This document shows, in pieces, positions 14,388-30,247 of a stretch of 64,000 bases of DNA (position 1 is the first letter of the stretch; every line of letters begins with the position of its first letter). Source of the stretch: Streptomyces sp. NBS 14/10 (GTDB lineage: Bacteria > Actinomycetota > Actinomycetes > Streptomycetales > Streptomycetaceae); the NCBI RefSeq assembly GCF_002224125.1, contig NZ_NCSM01000007.1, positions 375,839 through 439,838 of the forward strand. The letters run 5' to 3'. The translations under genes were made by a program, and so were the position numbers. Under the pieces are notes generated by a model. The model did not search any database. It worked only from the letters and a program-made list of their open reading frames with translations, and was not told where the DNA came from.

Positions 14388-14750
14388 TCAGGGCGAAGCA
14401 CTACTAGGATCGCGGCCAATCATGGCCTGTGCGAGGGCCTCCAGCATGGCTTCGAACTCGGCGGCGGGGATGACCACATTCTCGAACTGACCGTATAGAT
14501 CGAGCAGTTCGACCTCGTCGTCGCTGACCTTCTTCACGGCCGCGCCAGCGGTGCTCAGGCTGTACCCGATGCCATGAGCGCGGCTGCTCTCCCTCCACTC
14601 GGCCAGGCCATCCTGCACCGACCACGCCCGCCCGCCGAACGGCAGCACGAACGTCTCGACGGCCCGTACAGTATTGGCGTCGGCCTCTGGAGTCCGACGG
14701 GGAATCCAGCGGTCGTCGTCATGGACGAAACTCCACACCGCGTTGCTCAT
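14388..14750 (-). CDS. Probable immunity protein for the RHS-EndoU toxin
   Basis: A 120-residue acidic, soluble protein directly downstream of the RHS toxin gene. No named family recognised. It holds a Trp-rich N-terminal third and a helical C-terminus (P-A-A-E-F-E-A-M-L-E-A-L-A-Q). Position (last gene of the toxin operon), small size and acidity fit a dedicated immunity protein; this is inference from context. I chose the ATG at 14750 with GAGAGGGG 11 nt upstream; a GTG at 14771 that overlaps the toxin stop (GTGA) is an equally possible, coupled start. Confidence 0.7.
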   Translation of the reverse strand: MSNAVWSFVHDDDRWIPRRTPEADANTVRAVETFVLPFGGRAWSVQDGLAEWRESSRAHGIGYSLSTAGAAVKKVSDDEVELLDLYGQFENVVIPAAEFEAMLEALAQAMIGRDPSSASP

Positions 14751-14767
14751 GAACGCCCAAACCCCTC

Positions 14768-17700
14768 TCACTTTCCGGTCGGGAAGAACGACGACGGCCT
14801 GTATATCCCATCGGGCCCCTTCTCGAGAAGTCCCAGCAGACCCACACCGTCATGGGTGTGGGTGACCTGGGAGCTGCCGTGTCTGTACGTACCGTTCCGG
14901 AACAGATCACTGCCAGCTTCTGCAATCTTTTCCCGACTCCAATTCTCGGGAAAGAAGGTATGACCGATGCTGTTCTTCGTAGTCGGATTCCACTCGTGGT
15001 CCAACGCTCCGACCTTTCCGCGGACCGTTACCGAGCCGTCCAGGTTTGTCACCAGGTCGCCTTTGATGAACCGATCGTTCGGCCAATTCTGGTTGGGATG
15101 CATGTGCCAACCGCCGAATTCACCGTCCCCGTTGATGTTACCGCGCACGACATGGTCCATCGTCTCGTCCGGGATATTCGGATCGACATCGCATGGCGTC
15201 AGTCCGAGCGGATCGCTCCAAGTGTGGGGGTTGTGGACGTAGATGGCCGGGTTGGGCGCGGGGGAGAGCCCCAGAGGGTCGGGGGTGAGGTAGCGGGCGG
15301 TGGTGGGGTCGTAGTAGCGGCGGTGGTTGTAGTGAAGGCCGGTTTCGGGGTCGTAGTACTGGCCGGGGAAACGGAGGGGTGTATAAGTGCTGCTGTCGGT
15401 GGTCCAGGTGGTGGTACCCCAGAGGGTAGAGCGGGTGTGCCAGGTGATGTCGCCCGTTTCGTCCACGAGTTCTGTGGGCGTACCGACGAGGTCGGTGACG
15501 ATTGCGAAGAACCGCTGATCGATCTCGCGCTGGGTGGTGGCCTCGGTGATGCGCTCGGTCTGGGCGATCAGGTACAGGCCCTGGTGGTCCCATGTCAGGG
15601 TGACCCGGTGAGCGAGGTCGGGTGTGGTGGTCTGTTCGATGAGTGTGGGGCCGTCCCAGGTGAAGTCCACCTGTTCGGCGACCGTTTCGCCATCGGCCGC
15701 GAGGCGTTGTTTGGCGGTGCGGCGGCCGAAGGGGTCGTACAGATAGCGCCACACCGTGCCGTCGGGAGTAGTGACGGCAGTGAGGCGGTCCTCGGCGTCC
15801 CAGGTGTAGTGCCAGGTGTCGGGCTTCTTGGACAGCCGGATCTTCTGGCGGAGGGTGAGGCGACCCGCACCGTCGTGTTCGTAGCGGATGTTGCCCGCGC
15901 GGGTGATGCGGGTGCCGGTGTAGGCGCGGGGGCCGGTTGCATCCTGGGAGGGGTGGTCGGTGGGCCAGGCGGCCTGGGTCTGGTTGCCTGCCTCGTCGTA
16001 GGCGTAGGTCTCGGTCCAGCCCGCCGCGTGGACCGCCGTGACCCTGCCTGCCCGGTCCAGGTCGAAGGTGCGGGGGCCGGAGACGTGGTCGTTCAGTCCC
16101 GTGAGGTGGCCGTCCTCGCGGTAGGTGTAGGAACGGTGCTGGATTCTCGACTCGGATGGGCCGGTCAGGGTTTGGGTGGTGAGGCGATGCAGGGGGTCCC
16201 ACGTGTTGGCGAGGGTCAAGGTGTCGCCGATGCGGCGGGTGGTCTCGCGGCCTGCGGCATCGTAGGTGGAGTCCAGGGCACGCCCCGACACGTTCAGCCC
16301 CGTGCGGTTGCCTGCGGCGTCGTAGGTGTATGTGGTGGTGGCGCCGGTAGGGGTTACGCGGCGGGTGCGGCGGCCCAGGGGGTCGTAGGTGTGCGTGAGG
16401 ACGCGGCCGGCCACTGTCTCGGCCTTCACACGGCCCAGACGATCGCGCTGGTAGACAACCTCCGCGTCCGGTCCGGCCGCTGAGACCAGGCGTCCCCCCG
16501 CGTCGTAGGTGAAGGTGGTGGCGCTGCCCTCGACATCCTTGCGAATCGTGCGTCCCGCCGCGTCCCACTCGTAGGCCACCGTCTGGCCAAGCGGATTGGT
16601 ACGCGTCAGGGGTCGGCCGGCGGCGTCATAGGTGTACGCCACCCTGCGGTCGTCGAAGTCGCTCTCGGCCAGCAGGCGGCCGGCGTCGTCGTATTCGTAT
16701 CGCCAGGTCAGGCCCTGCGGGTTGGTGACCTCGGTCAGGCGCAGCGATGTGTCGTGGGTGAACGTGTAGCGGACACCGTCGGGGCCTGTGCGGGCTGACA
16801 GGAGGTCGAAGTGGGTGTACTCGTAGGTCGTGATGCCACCGACTGCGTCGGTGGCGGTGAGGCAGTTGCCTTCGCCGTCGTAGGTCCATCGCTCCTGTGA
16901 GCCGTCCGCAGCCCTGCGGCTGGTCAACTTGCCTTCCACCGACCAGGTCAGATGGGTCGTCGCGCCGAGCGGGTCGATGATGGTCACCGGGCGGCCGGAG
17001 GCGTCTCGGTGGTACGTCGTCGTCGCGCCGAGCGGGTCGGTGACCTCGACGGGCAGGCCCGCCTCGTCGCAGCGGATGTGAGTGGTGTGGCCAAGGACGT
17101 CGGTGACGGCGGACAGGTGGCCGAGAGTGTCGTAGGCGTAGTGGGTGGTGTGGCCTGCCGGGTCGGTGACCGAGGTGCGGCGGCCCGCCTCGCCGTAGGT
17201 CTGGTGCCAGGTGGCGCCGTCCGGGCCGGTGAGGGTGATGGGGAGGCCGAGGTCGTTGTAGGCGGCGGTCGAACGGCTGCCGTCGGGGCTCGCCATCGCC
17301 GTGAGGTGGCCGGCCTCGTCATACTCGTACGTGGTGGCGTGGCCCAGCTCATCGGTACGGGACAGGACCTGGTCGAAGCGGTCGTATTCGGTGCGGACGG
17401 TGTGGCCGAGCGGGTCGGTTTCCGCCACGACCTGGCGGCGTTCATTGATCAGGTATCGGCTGACCGCGCCCTCTGCTGTGGTGACCGTGGTGACGTGGTG
17501 GCCGGGCTGCTCTGTCACCCCGTCGTAGGCGATCCGCAGGGTTACGTGGCCCGCCTCACCGCCTTGGGCTACGCAGCGGTCCTCCTCGTCGTGGACATAG
17601 TCGAAGCGGCGGTCGTTGGTGTCCGTCCAGGAGATGATCCGCCGTCGGTCGTCGTAGGCGAAGCGCAGCGGTAGGCCGCTGGAGTTGATGACCTCGGTGA

Positions 17701-19063
17701 GGTTTCCGTCGGTGTAGCCATAGCGGATCAGCTCCTGGTCGCCCCCGTCCCCGACCGCGCGCGCCAGTTGGAGAGAGGTGATCCGGCCGTGCTCCGTGGT
17801 GGGCTTCAGTTCGTAGCCGCCGCTGTGTGCGATCCGGACCGGTGTGCCCTCGGAGTCGTACTCGAACGTGATCCACTGGCCGCCGCGGTCCGATATCCGC
17901 TCCAGCCGCGCGATGCCGTCGCCGCCGCCTTCCGGAGCGGTGAAATGGCGGGTGCGGCCGGTCTCCGGCTCGGTGAGGGTGTAGTCGCCGTTCGCGTCAC
18001 GTTCCAGTGGCCAGCGAGGGCCCGCCTCGGGGAGCGTGGGGACGCCGGGGGCCGGGTGCGGGTAGGCCAGCAACAGGCCGTCCTCGCTGACGAAGACGGC
18101 CCCCTCCACATCGATCTCCAGCCGTTCATCGGCCGTACTGGTCCAGGACGGACCGAACCAACGCCCGGCCCCATGGCTGGAGTCGTAGGCCCGGGTGAAC
18201 ACCAGCGACAGCAAGCCCGGCAGCGCAACATCAGTCGCGCTGAGGGTGACATAACCCGTCGCGACGTCGACCGGGTCACCACAGTGGGTACGGGTCTCTT
18301 TCGACCGGCTGTTGATCCAGGGCTTGCTGACCAGCGCGCGGGCCGAGTTCGTGCCGCTGCCATTGAGCCGCGCCCCGGCGGCTGTTGCCAGGTTTCCGCC
18401 TGCCGTGCCAGGCCCGGGAATAACGCCTCGCAGGCCGGACTCACCGCTGCCCCTCGGTGCCGCTGCGCGTATGGCCTGCGCGCAGGCGGCCTCGGCTTCA
18501 CTCGCGGCCCGCGCGGCTGCCCGGGCCATCTGTGCCGCGGCTTGCCGTTCCTGCTCGGCTTGCCCGGCGTAGTTGCCGATCTGGACAGCCATCTGGCGGA
18601 TCTCAGGTGGCTGGGACTGGCTGTACTGCCCGGCGGTCGCCCCGTTCAAGTCGCGCCAGACGCCGCCTCCGGAGAACGTCATCGGCACAAGCGAGCAGAA
18701 CCGCTGCAACGCGGCCCTGTACTGGGCGTCCGCCTGCATGCCCTGGTTCAGTGCGATCCGGGACTGGATCTTGGCCTGCTCCAGTCGTTGCGCGTACGCG
18801 ACAAGGGCATCGCCACAGCCTTGGTAAGCCGGGCCCAAGCGTGCCGCCCGGGCCGGGAGTTCAGCAAGCCTGCGCAGAAACCTGGGGGCGTAGTCGCCTT
18901 GCATGCGCAGGTCGCCACTGTTGGCGGCGACCTGGCGGAGCCGGCTGGTGTGCTGTTCGGCGTGCTCGGCTTCACGCCTCAGCCGTGCCGCCAGGGCCTG
19001 AATCTGTGCGGGGTCTGCCGGGACGGGATCACCCGGCAGATCCAGGACTCTCCAGTCCTCCAT
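14768..19063 (-). CDS. RHS-repeat polymorphic toxin with EndoU nuclease C-terminus
   Basis: A 1431-residue protein. Residues 1-200 are Ala/Gln/Arg-rich helices like WXG-type/LXG export domains. Residues about 253-330 (C-G-D-P-V-D-V-A-T-G through the F-G-P-S-W region) are a DUF6531 pre-RHS domain. Residues about 390-1230 hold more than 25 YD repeats (Y-D-A-A-G-R-type). The RHS core end (G-L-H-Y-N-H-R-R-Y-Y-D-P then Y-L-T-P-D-P-L-G-L) is near 1240-1290. The last 141 residues (from 1291) form the toxin: D-H-V-V-R-G-N-I-N-G and G-G-W-H-M, followed by H-T-F-F-P-E-N-W-S at 1368, are typical of bacterial EndoU RNases. No Sec signal; export probably by the type VII apparatus given the WXG100 genes just upstream and the ATPase at 25964. 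Confidence 0.93.
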   Translation of the reverse strand: MEDWRVLDLPGDPVPADPAQIQALAARLRREAEHAEQHTSRLRQVAANSGDLRMQGDYAPRFLRRLAELPARAARLGPAYQGCGDALVAYAQRLEQAKIQSRIALNQGMQADAQYRAALQRFCSLVPMTFSGGGVWRDLNGATAGQYSQSQPPEIRQMAVQIGNYAGQAEQERQAAAQMARAAARAASEAEAACAQAIRAAAPRGSGESGLRGVIPGPGTAGGNLATAAGARLNGSGTNSARALVSKPWINSRSKETRTHCGDPVDVATGYVTLSATDVALPGLLSLVFTRAYDSSHGAGRWFGPSWTSTADERLEIDVEGAVFVSEDGLLLAYPHPAPGVPTLPEAGPRWPLERDANGDYTLTEPETGRTRHFTAPEGGGDGIARLERISDRGGQWITFEYDSEGTPVRIAHSGGYELKPTTEHGRITSLQLARAVGDGGDQELIRYGYTDGNLTEVINSSGLPLRFAYDDRRRIISWTDTNDRRFDYVHDEEDRCVAQGGEAGHVTLRIAYDGVTEQPGHHVTTVTTAEGAVSRYLINERRQVVAETDPLGHTVRTEYDRFDQVLSRTDELGHATTYEYDEAGHLTAMASPDGSRSTAAYNDLGLPITLTGPDGATWHQTYGEAGRRTSVTDPAGHTTHYAYDTLGHLSAVTDVLGHTTHIRCDEAGLPVEVTDPLGATTTYHRDASGRPVTIIDPLGATTHLTWSVEGKLTSRRAADGSQERWTYDGEGNCLTATDAVGGITTYEYTHFDLLSARTGPDGVRYTFTHDTSLRLTEVTNPQGLTWRYEYDDAGRLLAESDFDDRRVAYTYDAAGRPLTRTNPLGQTVAYEWDAAGRTIRKDVEGSATTFTYDAGGRLVSAAGPDAEVVYQRDRLGRVKAETVAGRVLTHTYDPLGRRTRRVTPTGATTTYTYDAAGNRTGLNVSGRALDSTYDAAGRETTRRIGDTLTLANTWDPLHRLTTQTLTGPSESRIQHRSYTYREDGHLTGLNDHVSGPRTFDLDRAGRVTAVHAAGWTETYAYDEAGNQTQAAWPTDHPSQDATGPRAYTGTRITRAGNIRYEHDGAGRLTLRQKIRLSKKPDTWHYTWDAEDRLTAVTTPDGTVWRYLYDPFGRRTAKQRLAADGETVAEQVDFTWDGPTLIEQTTTPDLAHRVTLTWDHQGLYLIAQTERITEATTQREIDQRFFAIVTDLVGTPTELVDETGDITWHTRSTLWGTTTWTTDSSTYTPLRFPGQYYDPETGLHYNHRRYYDPTTARYLTPDPLGLSPAPNPAIYVHNPHTWSDPLGLTPCDVDPNIPDETMDHVVRGNINGDGEFGGWHMHPNQNWPNDRFIKGDLVTNLDGSVTVRGKVGALDHEWNPTTKNSIGHTFFPENWSREKIAEAGSDLFRNGTYRHGSSQVTHTHDGVGLLGLLEKGPDGIYRPSSFFPTGK

Positions 19064-19083
19064 ATCCCTGGCCCCCGGTCAGG

Positions 19084-19380
19084 TCAGCTGCCCGCGCCCC
19101 CGGCAAGCCGGGTGTCCAGCTCCTGGTGGGACCGTACGACCTCGCTCAGATAGGCAGCCATGCCCTCCAGGCCCTGGATCATGTTCTGGGCGCCAGTGGT
19201 CCACTGCTGATAGGAATCCTGGAACTTGCCCGACGCCAGTTGAGTACGGAATTCGCTGGTCACCAACTGGTCGATCATGGTCTTGAGGGACTGGAGCTGT
19301 CCGCTCATCTCGCTCTGCCCGGTCTTCAACTGCCCGGCTGCCCGGTTCACACCGTCGTAGCCGACATTCACATCAGCCAT
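19084..19380 (-). CDS. WXG100/ESAT-6-like protein
   Basis: A 98-residue helical protein with two long amphipathic helices around a W-T-T-G turn (position about 62), a slight variant of the W-x-G hairpin. Start M-A-D-V-N-V-G-Y and helix A-A-G-Q-L-K-T-G-Q-S-E-M resemble actinobacterial WXG100 proteins, which dimerise and are exported by type VII systems, often as chaperone or co-substrate of a larger toxin. It lies between the second ESAT-6-like gene (10 nt) and the RHS toxin (20 nt), clearly one operon. Confidence 0.85.
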   Translation of the reverse strand: MADVNVGYDGVNRAAGQLKTGQSEMSGQLQSLKTMIDQLVTSEFRTQLASGKFQDSYQQWTTGAQNMIQGLEGMAAYLSEVVRSHQELDTRLAGGAGS

Positions 19381-19390
19381 CAGGGCCCCC

Positions 19391-19681
19391 TCATGTCTCC
19401 GTAGCTCGGTCAGCGAACGCCTTGTCCAAGTCGAGCGTGCCTTCCGCCAGCCCGGCGAACAACCCCGCTGCCGACCCCACCGCGGCGACCAACTCGGCAC
19501 GGGTCACGGTGGCGGCCTGCACGAATTCCCTCAGCGCCGCCCCGACCGCCTCCGAACCCACCACCCCCGTGGCACCCTCCAGGGGGCGCGACAGCGAGAG
19601 CCGCATATCGGAGCCCATGCGGGTCAACTCCCGTGCGACCAGCTCGGCTTCCTGCGGATCGCAGGCGAAATTCCCAGCCAT
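19391..19681 (-). CDS. ESAT-6-like small helical protein
   Basis: A 96-residue all-helical protein starting M-A-G-N-F-A-C-D-P and rich in Ala/Glu/Leu, with the size and helix-turn-helix pattern of ESAT-6 superfamily proteins but no W-x-G. It is the first gene of the toxin operon and probably pairs with the WXG100 protein encoded 10 nt downstream. Its promoter region is shared with the divergent kinase 1. A broken relative lies at 23938-24070 in the same position relative to kinase 3, showing that this divergent gene pair was duplicated. Confidence 0.8.
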   Translation of the reverse strand: MAGNFACDPQEAELVARELTRMGSDMRLSLSRPLEGATGVVGSEAVGAALREFVQAATVTRAELVAAVGSAAGLFAGLAEGTLDLDKAFADRATET

Positions 19682-19707
19682 CGGCTCGTGACCTCCCCCG
19701 TGAGATC

Positions 19708-19765
19708 TCTACGTGATGGCAACACTGGATAACCTGCTGTAAGGCTAGCGCGCGCGGCGCCGGCC
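19708..19765 (+). promoter_or_regulatory. Kinase 1 promoter and leader hairpin
   Basis: Candidate -35 TCTACG (19708-19713) and -10 TAACCT (19730-19735) with a 16-bp spacer, followed by an imperfect hairpin (19743-19750 with 19758-19765, 7-nt loop, one mismatch and one G-T pair). The same arrangement precedes kinases 2 and 3. AGGAG and a GTG start follow. Confidence 0.5.
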
Positions 19766-19793
19766 GGTGGGCGATTGCGTGAGGAGCACGGTT

Positions 19794-21545
19794 GTGGGGA
19801 CGGATTCCCAGGGGGCCGGGCGGCTGGTGGCCGGCCGGTATCGGCTGGCAGGCGTGCTGGGCCAGGGTGGGATGGGGGTGGTCTGGAGGGCTACCGACGA
19901 GTTGATCGGACGGGCCGCGGCAGTCAAGGAGTTGCGTACTCCGCCGGGGCTGTCGGCCGAGGAGCGGTCGAAGTTCGGTGAACGGGCCTTGCGCGAGGCC
20001 CGTACGGCGGGTCGGCTCAACCATCCCGGTGTCGTGGCGATCTACGATCTCGTGCCGGCGACACCCGAGGACGATGCCGCCTACATCGTCATGGAACTGC
20101 TGGAGGGGCCCTCGCTGGCGGAGCTCCTGGAGTGGTACAGGGCCCTGCCGCAGGAGCGAGTGGTCCATATAGCCGGGCAGTTGCTGGCCGCTTTGGACGC
20201 CGCGCATTCGATCGGACTCGTCCACCGGGACATCAAGCCCAGCAATGTCATGGTGCTGCCCGGCGACCACGTCAAGCTTGTGGACTTCGGCATCGCCCAC
20301 GCCGTGGACGACACCCGCCTGACCCGCGACGGCGTCGTCGGCTCGACCGGCTATATGGCGCCGGAGCTGTTCCAGGGCGCTGACCCTTCTCCCGCGACGG
20401 ATCTGTGGTCGCTGGGCGCGACCTTGTTCCACGCCGTCGAGGGACGCGATCCATTCGCCCGCCAGACCCCGGCCGCCACCCTGCAGGCCATCCTCAACGA
20501 CGACCTGCCACCGCTGAACTGCCAACCTCCACTCTCCACACTGATCACCGGCCTCCTCACCCGCGCCACCACCGACCGGATGACCAGCGAACAAGCCGGC
20601 GCCCTGCTCCCATCCACCACCGCAGCCACCACCACACCGCCCGCGGCAGAACCACCCCGCCCAGACCAGGCAACGAGCGACAGCCCCACCACCGCGCCAC
20701 CGCACATGGCGCCGCACATGCCGCCGCACACGCCGTCAGCTCCGCCCGCACACTCCCCCCAGGCCACCTTCGCGAGCCACCCCACCGTCATCGGACAGCA
20801 CGCCCAGGTCCACTACTCGCCCGGCCCCATGCCGTACGCTCCACCGGCCCATCCCCCCGCCCCCGCACCCGGCGCGAAGAGGGAAACAGCCATGTGGATC
20901 GCCCTTGCGGCGGTGATGGTGATTCTCCTGGGAAGCGGAGCCTTCTTCCTCCTCAGGGACGACTCCAGTAAGGACGAGTCCAGTAAGGGCGCAGACTCTC
21001 AAGCACAGGGGGAAAAGACAGCGCAGCCGGGAAAAACCACGCCCCAGGGAGACTTGGGGGATTCGGGAGGCTCGGGAGATTCAGGGGGCTCAAGGGGCTC
21101 AGGGGGTTTGGTCACCGGTGAAAAGACATGGCCCAATCTGAGCCGGAACCACGTCACCACCACGATCAACTACCCCATGACGCCTCCCGCCGGTGGCAAC
21201 CACGACCCCGCCTGGCAGAACTGCAACGGTGACGTCTACGACAGCCAGATACGCGACGAGAACGCCGTGCACGCCCTGGAGCACGGCGCCGTCTGGGTCA
21301 CGTACAACGACAAGGCCGCCGGCGCGGACGTCACGGCGTTGGAGGCCAAGGTGGCCAAGACGCCGTACACGCTGATGAGCCCCTACAAGGACCAGTCGTC
21401 ACCGATCACGCTGACGGCCTGGGGACACCAACTCGACGTCCAGAACGCGTCCGACGCGCGGGTCAGCGCGTTCCTCGACAAGTACGTCCAAGGCGCACAG
21501 ACCCCCGAGCCAGGGGCTTCCTGCACCGGAGGCGTGTCCTCGTAA
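19794..21545 (+). CDS. Membrane Ser/Thr protein kinase 1 with external DUF3105 domain
   Basis: A 583-residue Hanks-type kinase. The Gly-rich loop is G-Q-G-G-M-G-V-V (23-30), Lys45 the ATP lysine, H-R-D at 144-146 and D-F-G-I-A the metal loop; all catalytic residues are present. A Pro/Thr-rich linker (about 280-360) leads to one membrane span (368-388). The outside part ends in a DUF3105 domain (P-P-A-G-G-N-H-D-P-A-W, A-V-H-A-L-E-H-G-A-V-W). I chose the GTG at 19794 because AGGAG sits 8 nt upstream in all three paralogues. It is divergent from the toxin operon and probably regulates the type VII system through the FHA domain of the ATPase. Confidence 0.9.
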   Translation: MGTDSQGAGRLVAGRYRLAGVLGQGGMGVVWRATDELIGRAAAVKELRTPPGLSAEERSKFGERALREARTAGRLNHPGVVAIYDLVPATPEDDAAYIVMELLEGPSLAELLEWYRALPQERVVHIAGQLLAALDAAHSIGLVHRDIKPSNVMVLPGDHVKLVDFGIAHAVDDTRLTRDGVVGSTGYMAPELFQGADPSPATDLWSLGATLFHAVEGRDPFARQTPAATLQAILNDDLPPLNCQPPLSTLITGLLTRATTDRMTSEQAGALLPSTTAATTTPPAAEPPRPDQATSDSPTTAPPHMAPHMPPHTPSAPPAHSPQATFASHPTVIGQHAQVHYSPGPMPYAPPAHPPAPAPGAKRETAMWIALAAVMVILLGSGAFFLLRDDSSKDESSKGADSQAQGEKTAQPGKTTPQGDLGDSGGSGDSGGSRGSGGLVTGEKTWPNLSRNHVTTTINYPMTPPAGGNHDPAWQNCNGDVYDSQIRDENAVHALEHGAVWVTYNDKAAGADVTALEAKVAKTPYTLMSPYKDQSSPITLTAWGHQLDVQNASDARVSAFLDKYVQGAQTPEPGASCTGGVSS

Positions 21546-21573
21546 CCACTGCACCACCGCCGCAACCAGGACC

Positions 21574-21631: not shown

Positions 21632-21659
21632 GGTGAGCGATTCCGTGAGGAGCGCGGTT

Positions 21660-23174
21660 GTGGGGACGGATTCCCAGGGGGCCGGGCGGCTGGTCGCAGG
21701 ACGGTATCGCCTGATAAGCGTGCTGGGTCGGGGTGCGACGGGGGTGGTGTGGAGGGCGACCGATGAGCTGATCGGGCGTTCGGTCGCGGTCAAGGAATTA
21801 CGCCTTCCGCCAGGGCTGTCGGAGCGGGAGCGGTCGCTGTTCGCTGAGCGGGCCCTGCGCGAGGCCCGTACGGCGGGTCGGCTCAACCATCCCGGTGTCG
21901 TGGCGATCTACGATCTCGTGCCGGCGACACCCGAGGACGACGCCGTCTACATCGTCATGGAGTTGGTGGAGGCGCCCTCGCTGGCGGATCTCCTGGAGCG
22001 GAACGGAGCCCTGGCCGAAGAGAGAGTGGTCGGCATGGCCGGGCAGTTGCTCGGCGCGTTGGATGCCGCGCACTCGATCGGGCTCGTGCACCGGGACGTC
22101 AAACCCAGCAACATCATGGTGCTGCCCGGCGACGAGGTGAAACTCGTGGACTTCGGCATCGCCCGCGCCATGGACGACACCCGCCTGACCCACCACGGCA
22201 TCGCGGGCTCGACCGGCTATATGGCCCCGGAACTGTTCCAAGGCGCTGATCCTTCTCCCGCGACGGATCTGTGGTCGCTGGGCGCGACCTTGTTCCACGC
22301 CGCCGAGGGACGCGATCCATTCGCCCGCCAGACCCCAGCCGCCACCCTGCACGCGATCCTCCACGACGACCTGCCGCCGCTGAACTGCCGGCCGCCACTC
22401 TCGGCACTGATCACCGGACTCCTCACCCGCGACAGCACCAACCGGATGACCAGCGAAAAAGCCAGCACCCTGCTCCCGTCCATCACCATCGCTGCCACTA
22501 CCGCATCGCCTACACCAGAACCAGCGCGCCCCGGCCAGGCGAGAAGTGAGAACCACCCCACCACTGCCGGACCTACGACCACACCGCCGCCGCACACGCA
22601 GTCAGCTCCGCCGACGCACTCCTCCCAGGCCACCTGGGAGGGCTATCCCACCACCATCAGACAGCACACCGACGATATGTCGCCCGGCCCCATGCCGGAC
22701 TCCCCACCGGCCGACCCCCTGATCCCCACCGTTGCGAAGAGGAAAAGGGCCATGTGGATCTCCCTTGCAGTGGTGGTGGTGATTCTTCTGGGAGGTGGAG
22801 CCTTCTTCCTCCTCCGCGACTCCAATGATGACGCAGAGCGTAAAGCACAGGCGAAAGAGGTCACATTGAAATTCCTCCGGGCCTACGCTCTGAAGGATTT
22901 TGATACCGCATGTCGATTCGTGGTTCCTCATGCGAGGATCGACGGCGAGTATATGTTTCCTCAATGCGAAGACGAAGAGGCCCGCAAGGCAAGTGAAGCA
23001 GAGAAAGTCTCCGACGAGTCACGAGCTGCCATTCAGCACATAGAGGTCAAGTCCGTCGAGCTGGACCACTCAAAAGCCCGTGTCCTCGCTGGTTTCGAAC
23101 AGTACATGGAGTGGCGGTTGAGGCGGAGCGGAGACAGTTGGCTCATTGAGGGGGTGGGATCCCGAACCGGCTGA
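21660..23174 (+). CDS. Membrane Ser/Thr protein kinase 2
   Basis: A 504-residue Hanks-type kinase very close to kinase 1 in the catalytic part: Gly-rich loop G-R-G-A-T-G-V-V, ATP lysine in V-A-V-K-E-L, H-R-D-V-K-P-S-N and D-F-G-I-A. After a Pro/Thr-rich linker and one membrane span (about 366-387) comes an external domain of about 110 residues (F-L-R-A-Y-A-L-K-D-F-D-T-A-C through R-R-S-G-D-S-W-L-I-E-G) resembling the NTF2-like DUF4878 family, unlike the DUF3105 of kinase 1. Codon 47 is TTA (21798-21800), so translation may need bldA. Start by GTG after AGGAG. Confidence 0.9.
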   Translation: MGTDSQGAGRLVAGRYRLISVLGRGATGVVWRATDELIGRSVAVKELRLPPGLSERERSLFAERALREARTAGRLNHPGVVAIYDLVPATPEDDAVYIVMELVEAPSLADLLERNGALAEERVVGMAGQLLGALDAAHSIGLVHRDVKPSNIMVLPGDEVKLVDFGIARAMDDTRLTHHGIAGSTGYMAPELFQGADPSPATDLWSLGATLFHAAEGRDPFARQTPAATLHAILHDDLPPLNCRPPLSALITGLLTRDSTNRMTSEKASTLLPSITIAATTASPTPEPARPGQARSENHPTTAGPTTTPPPHTQSAPPTHSSQATWEGYPTTIRQHTDDMSPGPMPDSPPADPLIPTVAKRKRAMWISLAVVVVILLGGGAFFLLRDSNDDAERKAQAKEVTLKFLRAYALKDFDTACRFVVPHARIDGEYMFPQCEDEEARKASEAEKVSDESRAAIQHIEVKSVELDHSKARVLAGFEQYMEWRLRRSGDSWLIEGVGSRTG

Positions 23175-23177
23175 TGG

Positions 23178-23203: not shown

Positions 23204-23216
23204 GACGTCGGGGCGG

Positions 23217-23254: not shown

Positions 23255-23507
23255 TCTGCTATCCCGGATGACACAACCCATCTGGTTGGCTGCCCCGTCA
23301 CGGCGGCGATCGTGTCGTAGTCGCCGTCGTAGTGCAGGACGAGCGCTCCGCGTCGGACTTCGACCGGGTACTGTGCAACGCCTCGAGCTCGACCGCGCCG
23401 CACACGGCAAGCAGACCCGCATTGTGCAGCGGATCGATCACCGCACGAACGGCCGACTGCGGATAGCGGGCAAGTGCGGACTTGTCGATGAGGTAGCGAT
23501 CGGTCAT
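23251..23507 (-). pseudogene. Decayed vapC (copy of vapC 2)
   Basis: The first 52 residues (M-T-D-R-Y-L-I-D-K-S-A-L-A-R-Y-P) match vapC 2 closely, then about 60 codons are missing and the frame shifts; the remaining 3' end (L-H-Y-D-G-D-Y-D-T-I-A-A-V-T-G-Q-P) is present in another frame up to a TGA at 23251. Catalytic acidic residues are lost, so the product is not a working PIN nuclease. The start still overlaps the intact vapB copy by ATGA. Confidence 0.85.
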
Positions 23508-23719
23508 GCGACCTGGTGCGGATCAGCCGGAGCCTCGACGGGACCCGTCAGGTCCGGCAGGCCGCCTTCGGCAATCCAGTTCAGGAACGATGCACGCTTG
23601 CGGCACTTGATCGCGTCTTCCAGCGCGGCATTCACCGTATCGACCTTGGTCGTGGTGCCAAAGATCTTCGCGGCATCGGCAAGCATCTCGTCGTCGACAT
23701 CAATGACGGTCCGCGCCAT
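23504..23719 (-). CDS. vapB: VapB-type antitoxin 3 (orphan)
   Basis: A 71-residue intact copy of antitoxin 2 (M-A-R-T-V-I-D-V-D-D-E-M-L start, F-G-T-T-T-K-V-D-T-V-N-A-A-L helix), with the same GAGGAGGACTC ribosome-binding region. Its toxin partner is broken (23251-23507). It could still neutralise VapC 2, acting as an extra antitoxin, or bind the vapBC 2 operator; this is inference. The upstream sequence no longer resembles that of vapB 2. Confidence 0.85.
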   Translation of the reverse strand: MARTVIDVDDEMLADAAKIFGTTTKVDTVNAALEDAIKCRKRASFLNWIAEGGLPDLTGPVEAPADPHQVA

Positions 23720-23937
23720 GAGTCCTCCTCCGGGCCGAAACTCCCGCACACCCGGTATTTTGCGCCCCGCACGCCACTGTTCCGCCCCTCACACAAGCAC
23801 CAGACCGGCCACCTGCGGCCCACCGGGGCCACGTGCGAGCCACCTGAGGGCACCACGTGACCGGACGGGATGAGGGAGGGAAGCAGTATGAAGCCCCAGG
23901 ACATGCTGCGAAGCCTTGCGAGATCCTGGACGGTCCG

Positions 23938-24070
23938 AGGATGTCGGCAAATGCCTTGTCCAGGTCGAGCGCGCCTTCCGCCAGCCCGGCGAACAACCCT
24001 GCTGCCGAGCGCGGGTCAACTCCCGTGCGACCCCGGCTTTCTGCGGATCGCAGTCGCATTTCTCGGCCAT
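23938..24070 (-). pseudogene. Remnant of the ESAT-6-like gene
   Basis: Starts at an ATG at 24070 with M-A-E-K-C-D-C-D-P-Q-K-A-G-V-A-R-E-L-T-R, matching the intact gene at 19391-19681, then about 120 nt are missing and the rest (A-A-G-L-F-A-G-L-A-E-G-A-L-D-L-D-K-A-F-A-D) appears in a different frame. It sits divergent from kinase 3 just as the intact gene sits divergent from kinase 1. The WXG100 and RHS genes are gone from this copy. Confidence 0.85.
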
Positions 24071-24096
24071 CGGCTCGTGACCTCCCCCGTGAGATC

Positions 24097-24154: not shown

Positions 24155-24182
24155 GGTGGGCGATTCCGACAGGAGCGCGGTT

Positions 24183-25343
24183 GTGGAGACGGGTTCTCAG
24201 GAGGCACAACGGCTGATAGCCGGGCGGTACCGACTGGCAGGGGTGCTGGGTCGGGGTGCGATGGGGGTGGTTTGGAGGGGGCACGACGAGTTGATCGGGC
24301 GTTCGGTCGCGGTCAAGGAATTACGCCTTCCGCCGGGGCTGTCGGAGCGGGAGCGGTCGCTGTTCGCTGAGCGGGCCTTGCGTGAGGCCCGTACGGCGGG
24401 TCGGCTCAACCATCCGGGTGTCGTGGCGATCTACGATCTCCTGCCGGCGACACCCGAGGACGACGCCGTCTACATCGTCATGGAACTGGTGGAGGCACCC
24501 TCGCTGGCGGAACTCCTGGAACGGAACGGAGCCCTGGCCGAAGAGACAGTGGCCCGTATGGCCGGGCAGTTGCTCGGCGCCCTGGACGCCGCGCACTCGA
24601 TCGGGCTGGTCCACCGGGACATCAAACCCAGCAACATCATGGTGCTACCCGGCGACGAGGTGAAACTCGTCGACTTCGGCATCGCCCACGCCATGGACGA
24701 CACCCGCCTCACCCACTACGGCGTCGCCGGCTCGACCGGCTATATGGCCCCGGAACTGTTCCAGGGCGCCGATCCCACGCCTGCGGCGGATCTATGGTCG
24801 CTGGGCGCCACCTTGTTCCACGCCGTCGAGGGAAGTGATCCGTTCGCCCGCCAGACCCCAGCCGCCACCCTGCACGCGATCCTCCACGACGACCTGCCGC
24901 CGCTGAACTGCCATCCTCCGCTCTCCACACTCATCACCGGACTTCTCGCCCGCGCCGCCGCCGGCCGGATGACCAGCGAGGAAGCCAGCGCCCTGGTCCC
25001 TTCCACCACCACCGCACTACCCACAGCAGAGCCCGACCGCCCCGGCCAGGCGACGAGTGAGAACCACGCCACCACTGCCAGACCGACGACCCCACCACCA
25101 CGCACGCCGCCAGCTCCGCCGACACACTCATCCCAGGCCACCTGGGAGGGCCACCCCACCACCATCAGACAGCACACCAACGCTCTGCCGCCCGACCCCC
25201 TGCCGGACTCCCCACCGGCCGACCCCCCGCCCCCCCACACCCGGCCCAAAGAGACGAAAGGCCACGTGGATCGCGCTTGTAGTGGTGGTGATGATTCTTC
25301 TGGGAGGGGGAGCCTTCTTCCTCCTCAGCGACGACTCCGTTGA
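24183..25343 (+). CDS. Ser/Thr protein kinase 3 (frameshifted before its membrane span)
   Basis: The kinase domain is complete and close to kinase 2: G-R-G-A-M-G-V-V loop, V-A-V-K-E-L, H-R-D-I-K-P-S-N, D-F-G-I-A. Codon 47 is TTA (24321-24323). The Pro-rich linker then meets a run of seven Cs (25230-25236); with one C fewer the frame would continue into a membrane span and the same external domain as kinase 2 (25237-25689). As read, the protein ends at 25343 after about 35 out-of-frame residues and would be soluble. This is a disrupted gene, a contingency frameshift, or a sequencing error in the C run. GTG start after AGGAG. Confidence 0.75.
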   Translation: METGSQEAQRLIAGRYRLAGVLGRGAMGVVWRGHDELIGRSVAVKELRLPPGLSERERSLFAERALREARTAGRLNHPGVVAIYDLLPATPEDDAVYIVMELVEAPSLAELLERNGALAEETVARMAGQLLGALDAAHSIGLVHRDIKPSNIMVLPGDEVKLVDFGIAHAMDDTRLTHYGVAGSTGYMAPELFQGADPTPAADLWSLGATLFHAVEGSDPFARQTPAATLHAILHDDLPPLNCHPPLSTLITGLLARAAAGRMTSEEASALVPSTTTALPTAEPDRPGQATSENHATTARPTTPPPRTPPAPPTHSSQATWEGHPTTIRQHTNALPPDPLPDSPPADPPPPHTRPKETKGHVDRACSGGDDSSGRGSLLPPQRRLR

Positions 25344-25689
25344 AGACGCAGAGCTTAAAGCTCGGGCGAAAAAGGTTACATTGGATTTCATCCATGCCTA
25401 CTATGCGAAAGACTTCGATACCGCATGCCGACTCGTGGTTCCTCATGCGCGCGACAACGGCAAATTTCTGGCTCCTGAATGTGAAGACGCATGGGAGCGC
25501 AAGAAAAGCGAAGCAGAGAAAGCCACCGTCGGGGATCTTGAGTATGTCGACAAGCACATGACGGTCAAGTCCGTCAAGCTGGTGAGCAACTCAAAAGCCC
25601 ATGCCACCATGGCCATCGACGGCACGTCCATGGTGGTGTTTATTTTGAGGCGGAGCGGAGACAGTTGGCTCATCGAAGGGGACAGCTGA
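25237..25689 (+). pseudogene. Displaced membrane and sensor part of kinase 3
   Basis: In the frame one base off from the kinase 3 coding frame: a membrane span (W-I-A-L-V-V-V-V-M-I-L-L-G-G-G-A) followed by an external domain (Y-Y-A-K-D-F-D-T-A-C-R-L-V-V-P-H-A-R ... R-R-S-G-D-S-W-L-I-E-G-D-S) clearly homologous to that of kinase 2. It has no start signal of its own. Restoring the frame at the C7 tract gives a protein of about 501 residues, the length of kinase 2. Confidence 0.8.
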
Positions 25690-25755
25690 TGGGCCGCCTC
25701 ACGCGCCCGCCGGGCACTGACGCGGGCGCGTGCCCGCCAGCCGTTAGGCAATCCT

Positions 25756-25773
25756 CCGGACCTCACGGTCCGG
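25756..25773 (+). terminator. Hairpin after kinase 3
   Basis: A 7-bp perfect stem CCGGACC / GGTCCGG with a TCAC loop, about 67 nt after the kinase 3 stop and followed by TTCTGT. The rest of 25690-25963 holds no gene that I can support. Confidence 0.5.
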
Positions 25774-25963
25774 TTCTGTGAGCAGTAGAGACCCGAAGCA
25801 TTGAAGCTAGGCCCTTGAGAAGCTGAAGGTCACGATGCCCAGTGCTCTCTCCACTGGGTTGCCTGGTCAGGGATATGGCGCGCCGTCAGCTATGCCAACC
25901 CCGCTTTTGCGTTGGGCCGCTCTGAAACAGGGGTATTGCTGTGGTCGAGGACGGGGGTCGGGG

Positions 25964-28900
25964 ATGATTCTGCGGTTGACCGTTGAGGATGCTCAGGCGT
26001 CGACGCGCCGGGATGTCGAGGTGTTCGCTACGCCCACCAGCACGGTGGGCTCGCTGCTTGAGTCGCTGCCGGATCCTGTGGGCGGCAGGCGGTGTTTTGT
26101 CGGTGCCGTCGAGCTCGATCCCCAGGCTGTCGTGGCCGAGAGTCCCCTGATACCGGGCGCGGTGATCAGGGTGGGGGCCCCTGGGCCGATGTTCCGCCCT
26201 GTGCCTGCCCATACGGCGGGTGTTCTCACGGTGGCCGCCGGGCCGGACACGGGCCTGATCGTGCCATTGGCTCCGGGGACGTACGCCGTGGCCAGGAACT
26301 CAAGGGCACCGGTATGTCTGCGGGATCTGGACGTCTCGCGCAACGAGCACGCCAGGCTGGAGATTTCCGAAGACGGCCAAGCCGTCGTCGTGGACGGAGG
26401 GTCGACCAACGGCACGTTCATCGGTGGCGACAGGGTCAGCAGCAGGATGGCGTTGAATCCGGGCGCCGTACTGCGGGTGGGCGCCGACCAGTTGCGGTGG
26501 ACGCCTCACCCGGTGGAGGCCCTGCGGGCGACACACAGCGCGGATGGGCGGCTGGACTTCGACCGGGCTTTCGCCGCTGCCCCGGCGGTCCCTCGTACTG
26601 AGGTGACCCTGCCGGTGCAGCAGAGCGTCATGCGCAACACAGGCATGATGGCGCTGTCCGCCCTGCTGCCCGTGGGCGGGGCCGTGCTGATGGCCCTGAC
26701 GATGCATCGGATGTCCATGCTTTGGTTTGGGCTGCTCGGAGTCCTGGGCTTCCTCATCATGCAATTCATCCAGAACAAGCAGCGTCGAGAGAGCGAAGTT
26801 GCCTTCGCCAAGGCGAAGAAGACCGTCCAAGACAAGATCGATGCCCATGTCGCCGAGGAGCAGCGCGTGCGGCGGCTGCTCGGCCCAGATCCCCTACAGA
26901 TCGCCGAGGCCGCCGCGGGGGTGCGGTCAGACCTTTGGCCGCGAAGAATGGATTCCCCGCACGGGCTGGTGCTGCGGGTGGGAGTCGCCGACCAGCAGGC
27001 AGCGGTGGACGTGCGCGGCGAACCCTGGGAGGGCTTCCGGACGCCGATGGTGCCTATGGCGCCGGTCACGGTGGATCTGCGGGCCACCGGCGTGCTCGGG
27101 GTGGTCGGGCCTGGAAAGCCGGTGCAGTCTCTGCTGAGGTGGCTGTTGATTCAGCTGAGTACCCTGCGCGGCCCCGACGACTTACGCATCATGGTGATCA
27201 CGGCGGCCGGACACGACGGTTTGACCTGGACACGGTGGTTGCCGCACGCGGACGCGGGCCACGCCGCGGCCGTTCCCTGTTCGATCGGCAATACCAATGC
27301 CACTCGCGCGGCCCGGGTGCAGGAGCTCAGAGGGCTCATCACGGCGCGGCGGGCGGAGCGCGCCGCCTCCTCCACGGTCCGCTTCGCCGGGGAAGTCGTG
27401 GTCGTACTGGACGGCGCCTTGGCCTTGCGGGAACTCCCCGGTATGGACGAGGTGCTGCGCGACGGGCCTTCGGTCGGCGTCTATCTGATCTGCGCCGACG
27501 AGCGCGGCATGAACGAGTGCCGCGGCCTGTGCGAGGTGGGCGACGGCACGCTGCGTCTCACCGCCACCCCGGACGACTCCCCCGTCACGGCCAAGCCCGA
27601 CGCGCTCGGCGAGGCGGCCGCCGAGCCACTGGCCCGGGCACTCGCCCCGATGCGCGACCGGCTCACCCTCGCCTCCACGCTGAACGCCGTGCCCGGCCAT
27701 GTGCGCTTCCTCGACCTGCTGGGCATTGGCATGCCGACCGCCGACGACGTCCTCGGCCTCTGGGATACGGGGCAGGGGCCACAGACGCGTGTCGTGCTGG
27801 GTGTGGATGCGAGCGGCCCGGTGACGGTCGATCTGGCCGGCCAGGGCCCGCACACCATGCTCGGCGGGGCCACCGGTGCGGGCAAGAGCATCCTGCTGCA
27901 GACGCTGGTCGCCGCTCTGCTGCTGGCCAACCGGCCCGACGAACTCAACCTCGTCCTGGTCGACTTCAAGGGGGGCAGCGCCTTCCTGCCCTTCCAGCAC
28001 TGCCCTCACGTGGTCGCGCTGATCCGTTCCACCGGCGAGACACCCGCCGACGTCTTCGACTCCGCCGCGGCGGCCCGTGTGCTGGCCTCCGTACGCGCCG
28101 AGGTCAGCCGCCGCGAATCCCTGCTCGCCCGATACGACGGCGAGATCGACAGGTACTGGCGCAAGCGCCGCACCGACCCCGGCATGCCGCCGCTGCCGCG
28201 CCTGGTGATGGTCTTCGACGAGTTCGCCCGCGTGCTGGAGACCTCCCCGGACTTCCTCAAGGAACTGGTCAATGTCGCGGCCAAAGGCCGCTCCCTCGGC
28301 ATGCATCTCGTACTGGCCACCCAGTCGCTCCAGGGCAAGCTGTCGCCCGAGCTGAAGAACAACATCTCGCTGCGGATCAGCCTGCGGCAGAACGAACCCG
28401 CCGACAGCACCGAAGTCCTCGGCGTACCCGACGCGGCAACCATCCCCGGCTCCCTGCGCGGCCGCGGCATGATCCTGTGCACCACCGGCGAAACCCGCAC
28501 CCCGCAGGTGTTCCAGTCCGGCTACCTCGGCAACCCGCCACCCTCCGGCGCGGCCCAGCCCGTTGCCGTCCGCGCGCTCCAGTGGACGGAGTTCGGGGCG
28601 CCTCGCCCCGCGGAGCACACCAGGCACGGCGAGGCGCCCACCGACCAGGACCTGGCCATCGCCGCCGTCGAGGAAGCCGCCGGGCGCGGCGGGCTCACTG
28701 CCCCGTTCCGGCCCCTGCTGCCCCCGCTGCCCGTCACCGTGGCGTTGGAGGACCTGGCCGACCGCCAGACCGCCGCTCCTCCCGCCGCGGCGGTGCCCTT
28801 CGGTCTGGCCGACGATCCCGAAGGGCAGGCCCAGCCCGCCGAATTCCTCGATCTCGCCGGCGCCGACCGGCTGATGGTCGCCGGCGGCCCGCAATCCGGC

Positions 28901-30247
28901 CGCACCACCTTCGCCCGCGCCCTGATCACCAGCCTCGCCACCAGACACCGCCCCGACCAAGCCCATCTCTACATCATCGAGCGCCATCCGGCCGGGCTGT
29001 CCGACTACAGCCGGCTGCCCCACTGCGGCGGTGTCTTCTCCGCCACCGAACCCGACCGCATCCGACGCCTGATCACCTGGCTCGACCAGGAAGTCCACCG
29101 CCGCGCCACCACCGGCCCCACGCCCCAGTCGGCACCTCGCCCCCGCATCGTGGTCATCATCGACGGCTGGGAACACTTCGAGAACCACAGCGACCCCGCG
29201 TTCACCGAGACCTCACTGCTCACCACCCTGCGCGGCATCGTCGCCGCGGGAGCCCCGCTGGGGGTGCACATCGTGCCGCTGGGCGGACACGACATGCTCA
29301 ACCACAAGCTCCCCACCTACTACACCCGCCGTCTGCTCCTGCCCTTCCCGAAGGAAGAGACCCGCCGCGCACAACTGACCTCGGCCATGACCAGCCCACC
29401 CGTCCTGCCCGGCCGGGCGATCGACGCCGCCACCGGCAGGCATATCCACATCTGCCACCCCAACACGCCCCCCACCGGCCTCCCCACACGGTTCCCCGAC
29501 GTCAACCCCGCCCATCTGCCGTGGCAGTTCCCCGCCCTGCCCACCCACATGACCCTCGACGAGCTGTCCCTGCCGGAGACTCAGCAATCCCCCAGCTGGA
29601 TCCCCCTCGGCATCGGCGGACCCGAACACACCACCATCGGCGTCGACCTCATCCAAGGCCCCCATCTGCTGCTGCTCTCCGGACCCCACGGCTCCGGCCG
29701 CACCACCACCGCCGCCTCACTCGCCCACTCACTGCGCCGGGCCGGCATCGGCGTGCTCGCCGTCGCCCCGCCCCGCTCCCCTCTGCCCCACCTGCTTCCC
29801 GACGACGCCGGCGTACGCGTCGTCACCGGCATCTCCATCAAGGACTCCGACCTCCGCGACGCGGCCGAGGCATTCGGCGACGGCCCCTATACGGTGATCC
29901 TCGACGACGCCGACCACATCACCGTCCTGCCCACCCAGCAAGGTTTCACCGACGCCCCCACCCTGCTGGACGACATCGCCCGCCTCTCGGCCCGCGGCCA
30001 CCACGCCCTCGTCCTCACCGCCGACGCCACCCCCATCCTCACCGGCTTCCCCAGCCCCCTCGCCCGCCTGATCAACACCATCGTGACCACGGGAAACCGG
30101 ATCCTACTCACCCCCGCCGGCCGCCCCACCGCCGTCGCCCACAGCATCACCCTCGAGCAGGACCAATACTTCAACGGCCCACCCGGCCGGGGCTACCTTG
30201 CCACCGGACAGACCCCCATCCTGCTCCAGCTGGCCACACTCGGGTAA
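25964..30247 (+). CDS. FHA-domain FtsK/SpoIIIE type VII secretion ATPase (EssC/EccC-like)
   Basis: A 1427-residue membrane ATPase. Residues 1-75 look ubiquitin/YukD-like; about 105-180 is an FHA domain (S-R-N-E-H-A-R-L and G-S-T-N-G-T-F); two membrane spans lie at about 228-270; three FtsK/SpoIIIE P-loop domains follow. Domain 1 has a canonical Walker A G-A-T-G-A-G-K-S (635-642) and Walker B L-V-M-V-F-D-E-F. Domains 2 and 3 have G-P-Q-S-G-R-T-T and G-P-H-G-S-G-R-T-T, where Arg replaces the catalytic Lys. The N-terminal FHA and order resemble Firmicutes EssC/YukB more than mycobacterial EccC. Codon 407 is TTA (27182-27184). It probably energises export of the WXG100 proteins and RHS toxin and may read phospho-threonine made by the kinases. 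Confidence 0.9.
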   Translation: MILRLTVEDAQASTRRDVEVFATPTSTVGSLLESLPDPVGGRRCFVGAVELDPQAVVAESPLIPGAVIRVGAPGPMFRPVPAHTAGVLTVAAGPDTGLIVPLAPGTYAVARNSRAPVCLRDLDVSRNEHARLEISEDGQAVVVDGGSTNGTFIGGDRVSSRMALNPGAVLRVGADQLRWTPHPVEALRATHSADGRLDFDRAFAAAPAVPRTEVTLPVQQSVMRNTGMMALSALLPVGGAVLMALTMHRMSMLWFGLLGVLGFLIMQFIQNKQRRESEVAFAKAKKTVQDKIDAHVAEEQRVRRLLGPDPLQIAEAAAGVRSDLWPRRMDSPHGLVLRVGVADQQAAVDVRGEPWEGFRTPMVPMAPVTVDLRATGVLGVVGPGKPVQSLLRWLLIQLSTLRGPDDLRIMVITAAGHDGLTWTRWLPHADAGHAAAVPCSIGNTNATRAARVQELRGLITARRAERAASSTVRFAGEVVVVLDGALALRELPGMDEVLRDGPSVGVYLICADERGMNECRGLCEVGDGTLRLTATPDDSPVTAKPDALGEAAAEPLARALAPMRDRLTLASTLNAVPGHVRFLDLLGIGMPTADDVLGLWDTGQGPQTRVVLGVDASGPVTVDLAGQGPHTMLGGATGAGKSILLQTLVAALLLANRPDELNLVLVDFKGGSAFLPFQHCPHVVALIRSTGETPADVFDSAAAARVLASVRAEVSRRESLLARYDGEIDRYWRKRRTDPGMPPLPRLVMVFDEFARVLETSPDFLKELVNVAAKGRSLGMHLVLATQSLQGKLSPELKNNISLRISLRQNEPADSTEVLGVPDAATIPGSLRGRGMILCTTGETRTPQVFQSGYLGNPPPSGAAQPVAVRALQWTEFGAPRPAEHTRHGEAPTDQDLAIAAVEEAAGRGGLTAPFRPLLPPLPVTVALEDLADRQTAAPPAAAVPFGLADDPEGQAQPAEFLDLAGADRLMVAGGPQSGRTTFARALITSLATRHRPDQAHLYIIERHPAGLSDYSRLPHCGGVFSATEPDRIRRLITWLDQEVHRRATTGPTPQSAPRPRIVVIIDGWEHFENHSDPAFTETSLLTTLRGIVAAGAPLGVHIVPLGGHDMLNHKLPTYYTRRLLLPFPKEETRRAQLTSAMTSPPVLPGRAIDAATGRHIHICHPNTPPTGLPTRFPDVNPAHLPWQFPALPTHMTLDELSLPETQQSPSWIPLGIGGPEHTTIGVDLIQGPHLLLLSGPHGSGRTTTAASLAHSLRRAGIGVLAVAPPRSPLPHLLPDDAGVRVVTGISIKDSDLRDAAEAFGDGPYTVILDDADHITVLPTQQGFTDAPTLLDDIARLSARGHHALVLTADATPILTGFPSPLARLINTIVTTGNRILLTPAGRPTAVAHSITLEQDQYFNGPPGRGYLATGQTPILLQLATLG

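Follow-up and report, generated by a model that had tools for sequence, protein, structure and literature searches.

A candidate minimal type VII secretion variant combining an RHS toxin, membrane kinases and an FHA-bearing ATPase in Streptomyces and related actinobacteria

Positions 14388 to 30247 of a 64,000-nucleotide stretch of the Streptomyces sp. NBS 14/10 genome (12.1 Mb in 127 contigs) carry an island in which genes for a putative RHS toxin, a WXG100 protein and a second ESX-like small protein (ESX2) stand next to genes for Hanks-type membrane kinases and for an ATPase with an FHA domain. Throughout, the window denotes the whole 64,000-nucleotide stretch, of which the island is one part. 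With moderate confidence, we propose that the island encodes a minimal variant of the type VII secretion system (T7SS), resembling T7SSd without its TsdI protein, which would be dedicated to the RHS toxin and in which a sensor kinase would dock on the FHA domain of the ATPase. The island is divided between the two strands. The immunity candidate, RHS-EndoU, WXG100 and ESX2 genes are tightly packed on the minus strand and are likely to form one operon, and the plus strand carries, divergent from this RHS block, the genes of the three kinases, the third of them frameshifted, and then that of the FHA-ATPase. The features are as follows.

14388 to 14771, minus strand: candidate immunity gene, 127 aa from a GTG start or 120 aa from the ATG at 14750, adjoining the toxin tip with a 4-base overlap.
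14768 to 19063, minus strand: putative RHS polymorphic toxin, 1431 aa, with a WXG100/T7SS_signal-like region (aa 1-120), DUF6531, RHS repeats and an EndoU C-terminus.
19084 to 19380, minus strand: probable WXG100 protein, 98 aa, matching PF06013.
19391 to 19681, minus strand: ESX2, second ESX-like small protein, 96 aa, with homologues near WXG100 in orthologous loci.
19767 to 21545, plus strand: kinase 1, 592 aa, a Hanks kinase with catalytic Lys/HRD/DFG, a transmembrane (TM) segment and a DUF3105 ectodomain.
21633 to 23174, plus strand: kinase 2, 513 aa, a Hanks kinase with a TM segment and a small ectodomain weakly like Rv0361_Cterm.
23504 to 23749, minus strand: VapB-like antitoxin gene (Pfam VapB) between kinases 2 and 3.
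23943 to 24008, minus strand: ESX2 remnant, 66 bp, 91% identical to 19409-19474 (tblastn, 22 aa at 95%).
24156 to 25343, plus strand: catalytic-domain frame of the frameshifted kinase 3, whose TM segment and ectodomain are read in a different frame that runs to 25689.
25964 to 30247, plus strand: FHA-ATPase, 1427 aa, with a ubiquitin-like-looking segment (aa 1-72), FHA (aa 86-181), a TM region and FtsK/EssC-type ATPase domains.

The gene set is conserved across several families and beyond chance, because it recurs in orthologous loci and its members co-occur within the genus. Twenty ATPase orthologues were retained: 17 from a scan of named genomes, one from the same genus (G096), one from the same class (G152) and that of the window; another candidate (L073) was dropped as an unrelated FtsK. 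The nearest named orthologues are from Streptomyces (72% and 71%), and the loci span Streptomyces, Geodermatophilus, Kineosporia, Frankia, Pseudokineococcus and Nonomuraea. In a FastTree phylogeny, the 20 sequences form one clade with a support of 100, apart from the three EccC proteins of the same genome and from other FHA-ATPases; long branches elsewhere make the deeper forks uncertain. Sampling is uneven, since nine members belong to or group with Nonomuraea (eight so titled, and L068, titled [Actinomadura] parvosata) and three Kineosporia-like records are near-identical, so that about seven independent lineages are represented. Contig or locus ends make L067 and L076 non-evaluable, and L068 non-evaluable for the kinase only. 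WXG100 is present in 18/18 evaluable loci, and 17 of these also encode the RHS N-terminus, the window being counted in both; L071 is without the latter, the RHS protein of L056 has only 432 aa, and that of L068 is split over two open reading frames (ORFs). ESX2 is found in 17/18 loci, the locus of L068 ending before the ESX2 position, and a partial RHS gene lies at the contig end of the genome of L076. The same-genus locus of G096 contains RHS, WXG100, ESX2, two kinases and the ATPase.

The slot for the kinase lies beyond ESX2 and, in Streptomyces-type loci, between ESX2 and the ATPase. A Hanks kinase occupies it in 8/17 orthologous loci (the window, L056, L057, L062, L064, L070, L072 and L074) and a membrane pseudokinase in another eight, these being the eight evaluable Nonomuraea loci; in the Frankia locus (L065), neither was found within 10 kb ahead of the ATPase or within 2.5 kb past ESX2. 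Our home-made gene caller misses genes: the kinases of L057, L062, L064 and L074 were found otherwise, and no genes of any kind were called in L115, L118 and L123. In the orthologue group, kinases and ATPase do not occur apart from the WXG100 and RHS genes, and they co-occur within the genus, as a preliminary description of the sequence had expected. Of 121 genomes from the genus, two have the kinase-1-type domain (E<=1e-75), in five copies that all lie beside the ATPase, and the ATPase (E<=1e-220) occurs in the same two; as one of these is the genome of the window, the independent evidence is one genome of 120. Within this genus sample, the kinases are dedicated to the ATPase. We considered and rejected the possibility that they are chance neighbors: the 63 kinases over the cut-off in 12.1 Mb correspond to about 8% per 16 kb, and to a chance rate of about 10% for the flanks of up to 20 kb of the named loci, versus 16/17 loci with a kinase or pseudokinase.

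The ATPase probably starts at 25964, and the query used for searches carried 43 residues upstream of this start. It comprises a strand-strand-helix-strand N-terminus, the FHA domain, a membrane segment and FtsK-type domains, with profile scores of 36.4 bits for FHA and 157.9 bits for FtsK. It scored 364.6 bits against the EssC model, 341 against EccCa and 249 against EccCb, all below the cut-offs, and it is not an EssC equivalog by TIGR03928, whose cut-off is 778.4 bits; in sequence, it is related to the solved EccC (4nh0, 256.7 bits) and to YukB. The residues of the FHA phosphothreonine pocket (R/S/H/N) are kept in 19/20 orthologues, and the predicted FHA model is best matched by the FHA domains of OdhI and GarA, the latter being listed as a substrate of the kinase PknB. 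In the first 72 residues, the order of strands and helix fits a ubiquitin-like fold, and hhalign against EccD N-termini gave a probability of 20.9, compared to at most 2.4 in 60 shuffles. This segment had no Pfam match and the fold-search lists were filled by FHA matches; we offer its ubiquitin-like nature as a suggestion.

All three kinase domains of the window retain the catalytic Lys, HRD and DFG of Hanks-type kinases. In kinases 1 and 2, these motifs are combined with a hydrophobic segment, as in a membrane Ser/Thr kinase of the TsdD type. The ectodomain of kinase 1 is a DUF3105 domain (167.5 bits), and that of kinase 2 is small, with a weak match to Rv0361_Cterm (22.7 bits, cut-off 37). 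Kinase 3 has an ectodomain 53% identical to that of kinase 2 and of the same type, in a frame other than the catalytic one, which ends at 25343; the break within 24156-25689 lies near a C-rich run and may be a real frameshift or a sequencing error. Over their matching parts, kinases 1 and 2 are 74% identical and kinases 2 and 3 are 84% identical. The ESX2 remnant ahead of kinase 3 points to local duplication of a segment made of the ESX2 end, promoter and kinase, by which the extra kinases probably arose, the promoter region being copied with the kinase. Pieces of VapBC-type toxin-antitoxin modules flank or interrupt the island at 12482-13167 (plus), 13340-13968 (minus) and 23504-23749 (minus); Pfam recognized VapB at 12482-12757 and 23504-23749 and PIN at 13340-13756, the remaining partners being assigned by eye. 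The VapB-like gene at 23504-23749 is probably outside the secretion system.

Ectodomains also vary from locus to locus, with DUF3105, WD40 (L056 and L074) or SPOR (L057). In G096, two kinase-1-type kinases flank the ATPase, one with WD40 repeats according to Pfam and the other alike by eye. In Nonomuraea, the slot protein has 392-437 aa (only 265 aa called in L069) and one hydrophobic segment. It shows profile homology to the kinases of the orthologous loci (96.6, versus at most 2.1 when shuffled) and aligns to the kinase C-lobe, with HRD and DFG missing from the alignment. Its ectodomain model may be LprG/LolA-like, by a low-confidence match. On the basis of a low-confidence model and of this homology to the locus kinases, the Nonomuraea pseudokinase may be EssB-like.

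Profile searches matched the RHS protein to 13 RHS-repeat stretches (310.9 bits) and DUF6531 (79 bits), and its C-terminus to EndoU (39.7 bits, cut-off 25.3). Its first ~120 residues are WXG100-like at sub-cut-off scores (Pfam T7SS_signal, 23.8 bits, below 27; WXG100, 22.0 bits, below 27.3), as would be expected of a type VII substrate. The immunity candidate matched no family, and neither it nor the EndoU tip had a tblastn match at E<=1e-4 in the loci of the other 19 orthologues, as would befit a polymorphic toxin tip. With RHS repeats, a variable C-terminal toxin and an adjacent immunity-gene candidate, the protein is predicted to be an RHS polymorphic toxin. The WXG100 gene product scored 44 bits against PF06013 (cut-off 27.3) and contains no literal W-x-G by eye. 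ESX2 has no Pfam or NCBIfam match and is conserved near WXG100 in relatives. A family of ~200-aa proteins (FTVRVPESWYEFDVW...) is encoded between WXG100 and ESX2 in 15/18 evaluable orthologous loci (L058 19195-19785 and equivalents) and is absent from the window, L056 and L074, with a further copy in a paralogous locus (L018 13081-13710). It had no convincing match in Pfam, NCBIfam or PDB sequences, and a role as a chaperone is only a guess. Some Nonomuraea loci also encode a 229-aa protein with an N-terminal hydrophobic segment and no Pfam match (L066 19735-20424), which is possibly an extra membrane part.

These results bear out most of the inventory given in the preliminary description, whose elements all lie where it had placed them, some details, such as the kinase count, being wrong. 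The giant RHS toxin with an EndoU tip is supported by the RHS, DUF6531 and EndoU scores, and the putative immunity gene has its candidate overlapping the toxin gene. The two ESAT-6-size genes hold as a WXG100 profile match and a conserved ESX2 without family match, and the EssC/EccC-type ATPase carrying an FHA domain agrees with the FHA, FtsK and EssC/EccC model scores. Of the three membrane kinases with different ectodomains, the paralogy stands, and the count is reduced to two intact kinases and two ectodomain types, the third being frameshifted.

The same genome encodes further FHA-ATPases, at L018, L019, L020 and L024. L018 combines the ATPase with a long T7SS_signal protein, a WXG100-like protein and a 200-aa protein; L019 combines it with two WXG100-like proteins and a long T7SS_signal protein. 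At L020 (8246-14706), the ATPase is accompanied by a small protein and by a kinase whose ectodomain is of a peptidoglycan-binding type, and at L024 by two kinases. L019 also encodes, at 12580-13566, a 328-aa protein that begins like WXG100 (by eye), ends in a long Thr/Gly-rich tail and has no Pfam match. In another actinobacterium (L132 3019-12431), a PP2C phosphatase, a kinase and an FHA-ATPase are clustered, along with a 234-aa protein that has no family match and is FHA-like by eye. Across 99 FHA-ATPase loci (L067 and L068 left out; L076 kept as without kinase, though its contig ends), kinases were counted if they scored above 90 bits, had the three catalytic residues and lay within 9 kb. 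A kinase is present in 21/99 loci, or in 29/99 if pseudokinases are included. Kinases are found near 15/37 ATPases with an intact FHA triad versus 6/62 without (Fisher p 6e-4), and kinases or pseudokinases near 22/37 versus 7/62 (p 6e-7); a clade of 58 loci without the triad contains five kinases, which is about background. These counts fit FHA and kinase going together, on few evolutionary events. Coevolution of the two as a statistical proof was dropped because the loci are not phylogenetically independent, which leaves a clade-level contrast only.

Building on gene content, conservation, the restriction of the kinases to ATPase loci in the genus sample, the FHA pocket residues and the homology of the pseudokinase, we propose a mechanism in which export, partner binding, sensing, phosphorylation, toxicity and immunity are all predicted. 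By means of its WXG100-like N-terminus, and together with its WXG100/ESX2 partners, the RHS protein would reach the EssC-like ATPase, which would thread it across the membrane. The neighboring single-pass kinases, whose ectodomains differ, may use these to sense the envelope and may dock on the FHA domain by way of a phosphothreonine carried by the kinase or by a partner, and phosphorylation would switch the assembly or activity of the exporter. In Nonomuraea, the kinase would have decayed to a membrane pseudokinase, presumably retaining its docking role, as EssB/YukC in T7SSb. The immunity protein would shield the producer from the EndoU (RNase-type) tip.

Several observations weigh against this proposal. 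Secretion, phosphorylation and binding at this locus are predictions from sequence. Kinase 3 is broken, and one additional residue separates the Ser and His of the FHA pocket in the window, L056 and L074. The association of the FHA triad with kinases is mostly a between-clade contrast, with only three independent pairs on the tree (L067, L068 and L076 left out), and it weakens when loci are clustered, p being 0.005, 0.16 and 1.0 at identity levels of 80%, 60% and 45%, respectively. Six loci without an intact triad carry a kinase (L079, L109, L116, L119, L120 and L145), and near some intact-pocket FHA-ATPases of other actinobacteria (L110, L121, L122 and L128) no kinase or WXG100 gene was found. 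The cytosolic model of the Nonomuraea protein is of low confidence and is matched by PknB at low confidence, and Pfam gives the protein no match. Finally, Nonomuraea keeps the FHA pocket alongside its pseudokinase; the pocket therefore does not require a local kinase. The kinase control of secretion through FHA put forward in the preliminary description is retained in part: the grouping is conserved, kinases co-occur with the ATPase, the pocket residues are kept and the model is OdhI/GarA-like, but kinase linkage in the wider family is far from universal (21/99).

The main rival, which we regard as fairly unlikely, gives the kinase-FHA pair a structural role like that in T7SSb, with an EssB-like scaffold docking without phosphorylation and catalysis serving something else or nothing. 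The pseudokinase that stands in Nonomuraea where other lineages have a kinase would be expected on this account, and passages of PMC9600267 describe the YukC pseudokinase of Bacillus subtilis binding the FHA region of YukB, apparently without phosphorylation. However, the catalytic residues persist in all three kinase domains of the window, and the FHA pocket residues conserved here are not conserved in T7SSb, according to PMC9600267 and PMC11217815. Exit of the RHS protein through one of the canonical ESX (T7SSa) machines of the genome, with the FHA-ATPase doing another job, is a poor contender. It would suit the T7SSa genes at C34 (L022) and C43 (L023) and an island without EccB, EccD and MycP, but several families keep RHS, WXG100 and ESX2 together with this ATPase, and EccB, EccD or MycP match in 0/101 collected ATPase loci. 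Least probable of all is a decaying accessory element that is now non-functional in this strain. In its favor, kinase 3 is frameshifted, the kinases are interspersed with an ESX2 remnant and a VapB gene, and four genes (those of WXG100, kinases 2 and 3 and the immunity candidate) did not pass a simple GC-frame filter. Against it, RHS, ESX2, kinase 1 and the ATPase passed this filter, full-length open frames with their motifs are present for RHS, WXG100, ESX2, the first two kinases and the ATPase, and G096 carries RHS, WXG100, ESX2 and ATPase genes along with two kinases.

Returning to the phospho-dependent exporter that we favor, a bolder form of it is conceivable if doubtful. The kinase slot could be an interchangeable sensor plug (DUF3105, weakly Rv0361-like, WD40, SPOR or LprG/LolA-like) that gates a minimal exporter by phospho-dependent FHA docking, ATPase and kinase being its only conserved membrane parts, and the Nonomuraea pseudokinase could represent a step from kinase to EssB-type scaffold. 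Kinase control of T7SS was earlier proposed from gene neighborhoods, mostly in Bacillota and Olsenella/Bifidobacterium, and the same logic appears here in Streptomyces and relatives. The natural swap of kinase for pseudokinase allows tests of whether kinase docking on FHA has a regulatory or a structural role, and likewise of the origin of T7SSb EssB. Our results suggest that soil actinobacteria may field RHS toxins by a non-ESX route.

Compared to T7SSa/ESX, the island shares WXG100 and an FtsK/SpoIIIE ATPase related to EccC, but it has an FHA domain, its ATPase falls outside the branch of the three EccC proteins of its own genome, and EccB, EccD and MycP were not found. As the preliminary description had stated for the window, no homologue of these three was found there or in any of the 101 ATPase loci with queries derived from L022 (EccB and EccD typed by NCBIfam above cut-off, the mycosin below), which did detect homologues in L021, L023 and L025 as a positive control. 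The island may be less self-contained than had been claimed: the same genome carries T7SSa at L022 (EccC, EccD and EccB above cut-offs, mycosin below) and L023 (EccC, with EccB, EccD and MycP homologues), as well as the paralogous FHA-ATPase loci, so shared subunits are possible.

T7SSd is described from Olsenella and Bifidobacterium and T7SSe from Bacillota in portions of PMC11217815, which report WXG100, FHA-ATPase and kinase together with nearby RHS genes in T7SSd and related subtypes, an adjacent RHS gene in the T7SSd of O. uli, and a suggestion of phospho-control. Elements that the preliminary description held to be usually seen apart are thus already combined in print. The island resembles T7SSd/T7SSe in its WXG100 protein, its membrane FtsK/EssC-type ATPase with an N-terminal phosphothreonine-motif FHA domain and its Ser/Thr kinase with an extracytoplasmic part, these corresponding to TsdA, TsdC and TsdD of T7SSd, and it resembles the T7SSd of O. 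uli in its nearby RHS gene. Unlike T7SSd, it is without a large envelope-spanning protein like TsdI (~1650 aa, with a Sec signal, Ig-like domains and a C-terminal TM segment), none being found among the called genes that start at 8-40 kb of the window, of which only those of RHS and the ATPase exceed 1000 aa, the rest of the genome being outside this check. Because TsdI is missing, we do not file the island as T7SSd, to which it is likened by gene content and not by a TsdC tree. No small single-TM protein like TsdH was noticed among the called genes, small ORFs not being specifically searched. Unlike T7SSd/T7SSe, the island occurs in Streptomyces, Nonomuraea and other genera, has a second ESX-like protein and tandem kinases in the window and replaces the kinase by a pseudokinase in Nonomuraea. 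We found no published description of this island type in the open-licence literature, the supplementary accession lists of PMC11217815 not being covered; the word "Streptomyces" does not appear in the main text of that paper.

With T7SSb, the island shares WXG100, an EssC-like ATPase with FHA and, in its Nonomuraea form, a membrane pseudokinase partner. Unlike T7SSb, it has a conserved FHA pocket, real kinases in most lineages, a single FHA domain behind a ubiquitin-like-looking segment where T7SSb has two, and an ATPase under the EssC model cut-off. RHS toxins are reportedly known in T7SSb too. In the type VI secretion system (T6SS), the kinase PpkA and Fha control secretion. The island shares with it the idea of kinase and FHA control of toxin secretion and no homologous machine, which makes this a functional analogy only. 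That parallel is already drawn in part of PMC11217815, and control by kinase and FHA has already been put forward in published work on T7SSd/T7SSe; new here are the lineages, the dedicated kinases with differing ectodomains and the replacement of kinase by pseudokinase.

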